Source: Angustibacter sp. Root456 (GTDB lineage Bacteria > Actinomycetota > Actinomycetes > Actinomycetales > Angustibacteraceae). Taken from it: a stretch of 64,000 bases of DNA. The first letter of the stretch is position 1, and every line of letters starts with the position of its first letter. The notes beneath the pieces were generated by a model. That model saw only the letters and a program-made list of their open reading frames with translations. It did no database searches and had not been told where the DNA came from. A program made the translations under genes and the position numbers. The DNA lies in NCBI RefSeq assembly GCF_001426435.1, contig NZ_LMER01000001.1, positions 320,752 to 384,751 of the forward strand, in the 5' to 3' direction. Below, in pieces: positions 34,395-46,148 of the stretch.

Positions 34395-34839
34395 GCGCCG
34401 CCACGCGCGGCACGACCAGCACGGGTCGCGTGGCCGCGTGGCCGAGCAGCCGCTTGCTCACCGACGGGCTGACCAGGTGGCTGATGGCCGCACCCGGCCC
34501 CTCGCGCCGGCTCCCGACGACGACCATGAGCGCGTCGACCTCGTCGGCGACGCTGGCCAGCACCTCAGCCGGCTCGCCGTGCGCCTGCCGGTAGGTCCAC
34601 GCCCCGGTGAAGTCCTTGAGCGCCTCGGCCGCCAACGCCCGCTCACCGGCGACGGCGGCCTGCGCGTCGTCCTCCCACGTGGCCGAGTCCGGGTCGACCG
34701 GGTAGTCCGACAGGTCGATGGCGTGCACGACGTGCACGTCGGCAGCGAGCCGCTGCGCCAGGTCGACCGCGAACCCCAGCGCGGCCCGGCTCGTGGGGTT
34801 GCGGTCGAAGCCGACGACCAGCGCGCAGCGGCTCCTCAC
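34387..34839 (-). CDS. Universal stress protein (UspA family)
   Basis: A 150-residue single-domain Usp: ALVVGFDRNPTSRAALGFAV at the N-terminus, ADVHVVHAID, the strand VDALMVVVGSRREG and C-terminal TRPVLVVPRV. The ATP-binding G-x2-G-x9-G(S/T) motif is only partly kept, so nucleotide binding is uncertain. The GTG start is six bases from TACAGT (minus strand 34851-34846). A perfect 15-bp inverted repeat (34831-34870) spans the start codon, with the -10 box in its loop. This is an unusual arrangement that could couple termination of the upstream gene to control of this one. Confidence 0.85.
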   Translation of the reverse strand: MRSRCALVVGFDRNPTSRAALGFAVDLAQRLAADVHVVHAIDLSDYPVDPDSATWEDDAQAAVAGERALAAEALKDFTGAWTYRQAHGEPAEVLASVADEVDALMVVVGSRREGPGAAISHLVSPSVSKRLLGHAATRPVLVVPRVAALS

Positions 34840-34870
34840 GCTGCGACTGTAGCGCCGCAGCGTGAGGAGC
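34831..34870 (-). repeat. Perfect 15-bp inverted repeat overlapping the Usp start
   Basis: GCTCCTCACGCTGCG (34831-34845) and CGCAGCGTGAGGAGC (34856-34870) are exact reverse complements around a 10-base loop. The element lies 22 bp past the SRPBCC stop, contains the TACAGT -10 box in its loop and includes the Usp start codon in one arm. It can be read as a terminator of the upstream gene, as an operator, or as both. Confidence 0.7.
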
Positions 34871-34892
34871 CGGGGGCCGATCAGCGGGCCCG

Positions 34893-39449: not shown

Positions 39450-39485
39450 CCACGCCGAGGTCGGACACCCCCGACCTCGGCGTGG
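39450..39485 (+). terminator. Terminator hairpin after the small membrane gene
   Basis: A 15-bp perfect stem (CCACGCCGAGGTCGG, 39450-39464; complement at 39471-39485) with a six-base loop starts four bases after the stop. There is no T-tract. The hairpin is strong on either strand. Confidence 0.75.
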
Positions 39486-44105: not shown

Positions 44106-44384
44106 TCAGACGACCTCGACCTCGACGAAGACGACGGTCACCTCGCCGTCGTTCGACACCTCGTGCTCGACGCCGGCGGAGCGGAAGTACGACGTGCCTG
44201 GCTCCATGGTGGTGCGCGTGACGCCGTCCGCGGACGTCATGACCAGCTCGCCCCCGCGCACGGGCACGACGACGTAGTCGAGGGCATGGCGGTGTGGCCC
44301 GGTGGTCTGGCCCGGGCCGATCGTCCAGGTGGTGACGCGGACGACGTCGTTGTCGATCGTGGTCTCGGACCTCGCCTGTTGCAT
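44106..44384 (-). CDS. Small cupin-domain protein
   Basis: A 92-residue single cupin barrel: TWTIGPGQTTGPHRHALDYV with the metal-binding His pair, then the second motif SYFRSAGVEHEVSNDGEV. It probably binds a divalent metal and a small ligand. The role cannot be told from context. The ATG has GAAGGAG five bases upstream. Confidence 0.87.
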   Translation of the reverse strand: MQQARSETTIDNDVVRVTTWTIGPGQTTGPHRHALDYVVVPVRGGELVMTSADGVTRTTMEPGTSYFRSAGVEHEVSNDGEVTVVFVEVEVV

Positions 44385-44480: not shown

Positions 44481-44570
44481 GCGATCCTCCTCGCCGCCAG
44501 CCTAGGCGGCGACCGCGCCCAGGCGGTGGTGTACGCCTACGAGACCGGGTTCGTCCGGCCGCCCGCCTGA
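44481..44570 (+). pseudogene. C-terminal fragment of a LuxR/NarL response regulator
   Basis: The plus strand encodes AILLAASLGGDRAQAVVYAY and then ETGFVRPPA before TGA. This matches the last 30 residues of the response regulator at 41319-41978 (GRILAKYDLRDRVQAVVLAY, then ETGVVQPG) and is also similar at DNA level. No receiver or HTH core precedes it. It overlaps the 3' end of the convergent DUF488 gene. It is best read as the remnant of a lost paralogous two-component regulator. Confidence 0.65.
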
Positions 44571-45106
44571 CCGTCCCAGACCAGGCGACCGCCGGGGCCT
44601 CCACGGGCGCCGTCACTCACGGGGTGCTCGACGAGCCGGCCGTCGTGCATGAGGTGCTCGACCCGGACGCCGCCCTCCACCGCGACGACGTCGCTGATGA
44701 TCCGGCGGTGGCAGCGCCACCACACCGCTTCGGAGCACAGGATCGCCGTACGGCGCGTCTGCGCCTCCGCGAGCAGGTCGGCCAGGCCCGCGCGGAACTC
44801 CTCGCTGCGGGTCCAGCCGGCGTACGCGCGGAACGCCTTGACCTGCCACCAGGTATCGGGAGAGGCGGCGTCCTCGTCCTTGGTCAGCGAGCGCCGTCCG
44901 CCGAGCCGAGCGTCCTGCCGGTACGCGATGTCGACCTCGGCGGCCAGCTGCTCGACCGCTCCACGTGACGCGGCGGCGTTGCTGCGGCTGCCGGGGAAGC
45001 GGCGGACGTCGACGATCGCCTCGACACCCGCCGACTCGAGCAGGTCGGCGAGCTCCTCACGGTCGAGCCGGCCGTGCCCGAAGGTCAACATCGTGGACGT
45101 CGCCAC
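44537..45106 (-). CDS. DUF488 family protein
   Basis: A 189-residue protein with the DUF488 pattern: LTFGHGRLDREELADLLESA, VDVRRFPGSRSNAA near the N-terminus and ILCSEAVWWRCHRRIISDVV (about 125-144) with the conserved Cys and His residues. The function of the family is unknown; the Cys/His cluster suggests a catalytic or metal site. The start is either GTG 45106 or ATG 45091; neither has a well-spaced Shine-Dalgarno. It is nine bases downstream of the hemerythrin gene and may be cotranscribed. Its last 34 bp overlap the response-regulator fragment on the other strand. Confidence 0.87.
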   Translation of the reverse strand: MATSTMLTFGHGRLDREELADLLESAGVEAIVDVRRFPGSRSNAAASRGAVEQLAAEVDIAYRQDARLGGRRSLTKDEDAASPDTWWQVKAFRAYAGWTRSEEFRAGLADLLAEAQTRRTAILCSEAVWWRCHRRIISDVVAVEGGVRVEHLMHDGRLVEHPVSDGARGGPGGRLVWDGQAGGRTNPVS

Positions 45107-45115
45107 TCCGGGGCC

Positions 45116-45601
45116 TCAGTGCGTGCGGGCGCGCTCGCACACCCAGCCGGTGGGGAGCGACCTGGTCGACACGAGGTCATTGAGCCGCGCAGCCGCGTCC
45201 GGGGCCAGCAGGCGCTCCGCGGCGGCGTAGACGATCGGCTCCTCCTTGGCGTTGTGCCGGTCGAGGAGGTCGAGCACGTGCTCCAGCTTGTGCTGCAACG
45301 CTTCTGGCTCCATGCCGTCGATGGTCGCACGATCCATCTCGTCCAGCGCGTCCCACAGCTCGCCGTGCTCCTTGAGCATGACGAGCACCGGAGCCATCAG
45401 CCCCTGCGCGCGCAACGGTGGGAAGAGGAACTCCTCCTCCAGGTAGATGTGCCGTCGCAGCGCGGTGAAGGACGTCGAGAGGCCCTCTGCCGCATCGGCG
45501 TCCTCGGGTGCCGCGAGGAAGGCCTCGATGCCGGCGTCGATCTCACGGTGCTCGCGCTCGAGGGCGCCGCGAAGGGTCTGGTGGTGCGGTTCACCGGTCA
45601 C
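45116..45601 (-). CDS. Hemerythrin-domain protein
   Basis: A 161-residue four-helix hemerythrin-like protein. Candidate di-iron ligands lie in LEREHREIDAGIEAFL, LRRHIYLEEEFLFPPL, MLKEHGELWDALDEMD and LLDRHNAKEEPIVYAA. It could bind oxygen or nitric oxide, or help with iron-sulfur repair. The GTG start is six bases from TAAACT (45613-45608), and no Shine-Dalgarno is present, so it is probably leaderless. It shares a mirror-image promoter with the divergent membrane protein at 45642. Confidence 0.9.
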   Translation of the reverse strand: MTGEPHHQTLRGALEREHREIDAGIEAFLAAPEDADAAEGLSTSFTALRRHIYLEEEFLFPPLRAQGLMAPVLVMLKEHGELWDALDEMDRATIDGMEPEALQHKLEHVLDLLDRHNAKEEPIVYAAAERLLAPDAAARLNDLVSTRSLPTGWVCERARTH

Positions 45602-45604
45602 GCA

Positions 45605-45638
45605 CCGAGTTTACACCGACGTTCCCGTGTAAACTCGG
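45605..45638. promoter_or_regulatory. Mirror-symmetric bidirectional promoter: 12-bp perfect inverted repeat
   Basis: CCGAGTTTACAC (45605-45616) and GTGTAAACTCGG (45627-45638) are exact reverse complements across a 10-bp spacer. Each arm contains a TAAACT -10 hexamer, and in each direction exactly six bases separate it from a GTG start (45601 minus, 45642 plus). Neither direction has a good -35, so an activator bound to the repeat is plausible. Confidence 0.7.
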
Positions 45639-45641
45639 AGG

Positions 45642-46148
45642 GTGACCTCACACGCCTCCGCGACCACTCAGCCTGCGCCGCTCGACCTCCTCCCGCGCGA
45701 TCCCTCATCCCGGACCCTCGTCGCGCTCGGTGTCGCGTGCGTCGTCGCGGGTGGCCTCGTCGCCGCAGTGACGTCGCCGCTCGACCTGGGTCACGGCAGC
45801 TGGGTCGCGGCCTACCTCGTGCTGGTCGGCGGCGTCGGACAGACCGCCATGGGCGTTGCCGGCCTGGTGACGCCCGGTGCGGAACGTCGGGCGTCGAGCG
45901 GCTGGGCGCAGGTCGGCACCTGGAACACCGGCAACGCGTTGGTGATCACCGGCACGCTGGTGACGCTCCCCCTGCTCGTGGACGTCGGTGGGCTGGCGTG
46001 CGTGGTGGCCCTGGCCATCGCCCTGCTGCGCTCGCGACGTCTGCACGGCACCCTCGGGACGTGGACCTACCGAGGGGTGCTCGCCGTCCTGCTCGTCAGC
46101 GTGCCGGTCGGCCTGGTGCTGGCTCACCTGCGCGCCGCCAGAGCGTGA
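45642..46148 (+). CDS. Membrane protein divergent from hemerythrin
   Basis: A 168-residue protein with four hydrophobic segments: LVALGVACVVAGGLVAAV (25-42), WVAAYLVLVGGVGQTAMGVA (54-73), ALVITGTLVTLPLLVDVG (98-115) and VLAVLLVSVPVGLVLAHL (144-161). His and Trp residues sit at the helix ends (LGHGSW, TWNTGNAL). No family is assigned. GTG at 45642 is six bases from a -10 TAAACT, i.e. leaderless. The shared symmetric promoter implies co-expression with hemerythrin, hence a possible role in redox or nitric-oxide response. Confidence 0.8.
   Translation: MTSHASATTQPAPLDLLPRDPSSRTLVALGVACVVAGGLVAAVTSPLDLGHGSWVAAYLVLVGGVGQTAMGVAGLVTPGAERRASSGWAQVGTWNTGNALVITGTLVTLPLLVDVGGLACVVALAIALLRSRRLHGTLGTWTYRGVLAVLLVSVPVGLVLAHLRAARA

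Follow-up and report, generated by a model that had tools for sequence, protein, structure and literature searches.

This study found that the genes for a hemerythrin-like protein and a small membrane protein of Angustibacter sp. Root456 diverge from a perfect 12-bp inverted repeat, CCGAGTTTACAC-N10-GTGTAAACTCGG, which was read directly in the window (the whole 64,000-nucleotide stretch of DNA analysed) and spans 34 bp in total. The layout of the -10 boxes and GTG codons is standard in this genome, whereas the perfect AT-rich symmetry is not. With moderate confidence, we propose that two ordinary leaderless promoters lie back to back under one palindromic operator, where a dimeric repressor would respond to a nitric oxide or redox signal and induction of the two genes would be competitive. 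As a promoter type this is nothing unusual in the bacterial group, and the two genes form part of a nitrate/nitric-oxide neighbourhood that has been little studied.

Palindrome geometry and the leaderless promoter class

The coordinates of the palindrome, its -10 boxes and the surrounding genes are collected in Table 1. Read from either side, the frame is TAA ACT CGG NNN GTG. The -10 box thus opens with an in-frame TAA stop, so that no start codon can precede either GTG, and the open frames (171 and 164 aa) begin just three codons 5' of each GTG. The inferred transcription start sites, 45601 and 45642, lie 41 bp apart. The consensus scan detected no sigma-70-type promoter with 16-18 bp spacing, hence no -35 element at the ordinary distance. 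The sequence TTTACA, a 5/6 match to TTGACA, lies only 14 bp away from either -10 box, nearer than a normal -35 would be, and it stands there because the symmetry of the palindrome places it there. The preliminary description of a 12-bp inverted repeat holding TAAACT in each arm, six bases from a GTG and without a -35, was exact on re-reading the sequence.

Table 1. Positions of the palindrome, promoter elements and genes in the window.
Feature	Position	Strand	Remark
Cupin_2 protein	44106..44384	-	next minus-strand gene after DUF488
DUF488 protein	44537..45106	-	follows the hemerythrin gene after 9 bp
Hemerythrin-like HHE protein, 161 aa	45116..45601	-	Pfam and conserved ligands
Inverted repeat, inferred operator	45605..45638	.	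read directly
Left arm CCGAGTTTACAC	45605-45616		exact reverse complement of right arm
-10 box TAAACT, hemerythrin gene	45608..45613	-	6 nt 5' of GTG; followed by CGGTGC, then GTG 45601-45599
Spacer CGACGTTCCC	45617-45626		between the two arms
Right arm GTGTAAACTCGG	45627-45638		exact reverse complement of left arm
-10 box TAAACT, membrane-protein gene	45630..45635	+	6 nt 5' of GTG; followed by CGGAGG, then GTG at 45642
Small hydrophobic membrane protein, 168 aa	45642..46148	+	relatives scattered in order

Among 306 heuristic gene calls (464 kb of genome, 72% GC), the arrangement TANNNT-N6/7-(A/G)TG was present at 39 starts, with a spacing of 6 nt at 24 and of 7 nt at 15, compared with five or fewer at any other distance. 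Because this is the ordinary signature of the genome, the leaderless layout at the palindrome is standard. Both palindrome promoters carry a TANNNT box at this distance from the start codon, and the sequence supports regarding them as ordinary, predicted leaderless members of the class in Angustibacter sp. Root456. The earlier claim of a leaderless promoter is thus borne out by the genome-wide TANNNT peak at 6-7 nt. In M. tuberculosis, most primary starts are preceded by a conserved TANNNT without a -35 motif, and roughly one gene in four is leaderless (PMC3898074). Relatives of the membrane protein elsewhere also look leaderless, with TAAACT-N6-GTG (L028), TAGGTT-N7-GTG (L016) and TAGGCT-N7-ATG (L115); the repeat is absent there.

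Recurrence of the palindrome and its reading as an operator

The 28-bp core of the palindrome was searched for in the whole genome with up to three mismatches. This search, designed after the first site was seen, yielded one extra site, AGTTTTCACGAACATTCTCGTGTTAACT, at G000:C20:110378-110405 (L112 1501-1528), with 2/18 mismatches; the number expected genome-wide is 0.0013 for two mismatches, or 0.028 for the three-mismatch search as run. The near-copy also sits in a divergent intergenic gap, between a ChaB/Rho_N-domain gene and a gene of unknown family that has only weak relatives in the order. There, TAAACT is replaced by AAAACT and TTAACT and AGTT..CAC/GTG..AACT is kept, which fits an operator rather than a promoter motif. 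The exact arm had no second occurrence in the 3.84-Mb genome, and the degenerate form of the palindrome was absent from 296 other genomes of the order. Together, the palindrome and its near-copy fit a lineage-specific operator with at least two putative targets, although a single extra site counts for little. The palindrome is a symmetric site over a promoter, as a dimeric operator would be, and it recurs as one near-copy in the genome and at none of the orthologous pairs. The suggestion that a dimeric regulator is centred on the repeat is plausible and gains modest support from the near-copy in another divergent gap. On the sequence, one shared operator for both genes is likely.

It is also possible, although we consider it rather unlikely, that there is no operator, and that the palindrome simply follows from having two identical strong -10 regions back to back, with the two promoters constitutive or controlled elsewhere. 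Both -10 boxes and their spacing are indeed standard for the genome, close divergent promoters have been described as common in M. tuberculosis (PMC3898074), the other linked pairs lack the repeat, and across 396 genomes the core palindrome occurs no more often than its control. Against this, promoter function needs neither the six matches beyond the -10 boxes nor the identical NNN inside them, TAAACT occurs in only these two of the 39 leaderless boxes, and the near-copy does not keep it.

In the operator reading that we prefer, a dimeric repressor bound to the palindrome would cover both -10 boxes and block polymerase in both directions; since a bound dimer would cover both boxes, repression is the simplest action. 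When the signal arrives, the repressor would leave, and the hemerythrin and membrane-protein genes would both be expressed. From the known footprint size, polymerase occupying one promoter would be expected to extend over the other. The overlapping polymerase sites would thus let only one promoter be occupied at a time, giving joint induction with competition. It had been stated that such symmetry ensures equal expression of the two genes, which we found unsupported, since the RNA polymerase footprints would overlap almost wholly and overlapping opposed promoters compete, as described for the shared -10 class (PMC12825309). Equality is not implied where opposed polymerase sites overlap, with predicted starts 41 bp apart, and should exclude each other; by analogy, the symmetry suggests joint control with competition rather than guaranteed equality. 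The promoter pair would be a clean natural case of opposed leaderless promoters that cannot be jointly occupied and that share one operator.

A site for an activator, or for a bidirectional switch choosing the direction instead of repressing both genes, appears improbable. Opposed overlapping promoters do let one direction gain at the other's cost (PMC12825309), but a symmetric site that spans both -10 boxes offers no asymmetric contact point, and a protein bound there would obstruct sigma region 2 on either side.

The window contains six distinct perfect 12-bp repeats with a spacer of at most 20, compared with 1.15 per Markov shuffle, and the other five are GC-rich. Perfect 12-bp repeats with at least six A/T in the arm number only two in 464 kb, palindrome included. 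The palindrome is centred on two start-proximal -10 boxes, and, given two TANNNT boxes, nine more positions must match, for which our own arithmetic gives a chance of about 2e-5 at 72% GC. That the palindrome arose recently by chance or mutation and has no function is very improbable, because, despite the approximately six perfect 12-bp repeats in the window, this one is registered exactly on two start-proximal -10 boxes and is the AT-rich outlier. At window positions 34829-34872 and 39450-39485, perfect GC-rich inverted repeats whose arms exceed 12 bp were also observed.

The gene pair, its relatives and their neighbourhoods

The hemerythrin-like protein carries the HHE domain (Pfam PF01814, 58.3 bits against a cut-off of 25.3), and its residues H18, H51, E55, H79, H116 and E120 are conserved in about 97-100% of 58 aligned sequences. 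Identity with the YtfE/RIC iron-sulfur repair protein was rejected (25 vs 254 bits, NCBIfam equivalog cut-off). The DUF488 gene likely shares a transcript with the hemerythrin gene, and DUF488 homologues occur elsewhere in loci of both hemerythrin relatives and membrane-protein relatives. A role in a defence system was set aside, as PADLOC gave no match.

The membrane protein had no sequence match in Pfam, NCBIfam or PDB, hence no named family, and its relatives were found in 26/396 genomes of the order. In an alignment of eight members, W54, Y58 and Q67 are among the invariant residues, and none of these residues is a His. Of the conserved-looking His and Trp attributed to this protein, the Trp part thus holds for W54, the only invariant Trp, and the His part does not; a conserved His-metal site in the family is likewise unsupported, since no His is invariant.

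The two genes are linked in five genomes, Angustibacter sp. Root456 included: divergently here, convergently in Streptomyces anandii and Pseudolysinimonas, and in tandem in Prescottella and an unclassified actinomycete. One same-genus genome lacks both genes, and a class-wide search revealed no further divergent hemerythrin/membrane pairs. Adjacency that recurs in three different orders speaks for a functional link. The repeat was absent from the pair in the four other linking genomes, indicating, with the three arrangements, that the mirror promoter is not conserved. The preliminary description named as its point of failure a repeat not conserved where the pair is conserved; the repeat was found in 1/5 linked genomes, which speaks against a conserved element. 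A promoter conserved across the order was also rejected, because AGTTTAC-N10..16-GTAAACT was found among 396 genomes in its own genome and in one unrelated place, and the control pattern for this search was found in 6 of the 396.

Near the membrane-protein relatives, we observed a small cupin, another hemerythrin-domain protein (L026), a ferredoxin (L115) and DUF488 (L007, L117). The locus L016 contains a Pfam molybdopterin oxidoreductase, taken as a nitrate reductase alpha chain, which in our own reading of the sequence would be NarG; likewise, a neighbour in L019 and L029 without a Pfam match reads to us as a probable group-III truncated globin. Homologues of ArnR/SufR-like winged-HTH regulators, some of them partial matches, occur in 11 hemerythrin-relative loci and 8 membrane-protein-relative loci, with L055 and L083 belonging to both sets. 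Three cysteines are aligned in 12/12 full-length copies of this regulator, with 14 residues from the first to the second and 30-odd to the third. Three-cysteine regulators were seen in L010, L016, L020, L026, L036, L055, L056 and L062, and further in L068, L075, L079, L080, L082, L083, L087 and L121.

The ArnR-like three-Cys regulator and the other neighbours, nitrate reductase among them, point to a nitric oxide/nitrate theme and to an ArnR/SufR-like candidate regulator. From the gene content, nitric oxide or nitrate respiration is most likely the theme of the neighbourhood, and the signal for the palindrome would most likely be nitric oxide or a related redox stress. The candidate repressor class would be an ArnR/SufR-like winged-helix protein with a three-cysteine Fe-S site, its identity being a guess. 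The oxygen/nitric-oxide response pair suggested earlier is thus supported indirectly, in that relatives of both genes lie beside an ArnR/SufR-like regulator, sometimes with NarG, ferredoxin, cupin or DUF488.

In L036, the regulator and hemerythrin genes are divergent, with an AT-rich near-palindrome, GTTTTTACA-N10-TATAAAAAC, between them. The spacing from TTTACA to the opposite half is about 8-10 near hemerythrin relatives elsewhere, compared with 12 in the window palindrome; these differing spacings mean that the sites near hemerythrin relatives may differ from the window site. A TGTAAA/TTTACA box was found upstream of hemerythrin relatives in 14/57 loci, with 0.9 expected; as a general box it was rejected, since 9/13 bacterial matches are from Actinomadura and it is not special without that genus, and it serves as a lead only. 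Upstream TTTACA...TGTA near-palindromes were observed at Actinomadura hemerythrin-relative genes (L036, L049, L088, L067, L069, L071, L081, L074), four of which have TTTACA 14 bp before a TANNNT box, a distance equal to that in the window.

More speculatively, and with little confidence, the membrane family and the hemerythrin-like protein may form a new nitric-oxide-response module of Actinobacteria, usually under an ArnR/SufR-like Fe-S repressor, in this case with a palindrome over competing promoters as its switch. The gene context is more useful than the promoter, because it offers a testable assignment for a membrane family without annotation, through hemerythrin and a likely NO-sensing Fe-S regulator.

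Comparison with known systems

The leaderless promoters of M. tuberculosis resemble those at the palindrome in having TANNNT just 5' of ATG/GTG and no -35 motif, and the divergent pair prpD/Rv1129c has leaderless starts on both sides; however, a perfect palindrome with identical -10 boxes is not described (PMC3898074). As for the protein, MsmHr of Mycobacterium smegmatis is a hemerythrin-like protein tied to oxidative stress, and the abstract on it mentions neither a divergent membrane partner nor an operator (PMC4295536).

ArnR of C. glutamicum is a NO-sensitive [4Fe-4S] repressor of nitrate reductase and hmp, with C179, C193 and C223 (PMC12343034). The neighbour regulator is similar to ArnR and SufR-type Fe-S repressors in its winged HTH, its three Cys and the 14-residue step (C179/C193), and it adjoins nitrate reductase in one locus (L016). 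Unlike in those cases, no ArnR-like gene was found in the 0.72 Mb read of Angustibacter sp. Root456, about 19% of the genome.

In promoters with -10 symmetry, mirror-symmetric promoters are opposed and exclusion of polymerase is expected, as it is here (PMC12825309, PMC10268837). The polymerases are mutually exclusive at a shared -10, and activating one direction tends to repress the other (PMC12825309). However, those promoters share or overlap one -10 element, and the class is defined by opposed starts 7-25 bp apart, mostly 18 (PMC10268837); with two separate boxes and inferred starts at 45601 and 45642, 41 bp apart, the palindrome promoters do not belong to it. By analogy, the steric exclusion argument may nevertheless carry over to them.

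Finally, although the regulator of the CrtR/crtE system is itself one of the divergent genes and neither gene here encodes a DNA-binding protein, that system resembles the proposed arrangement in that one repressor serves divergent genes from a palindromic site on the promoter, with crtR reported to be leaderless (PMC5401885).
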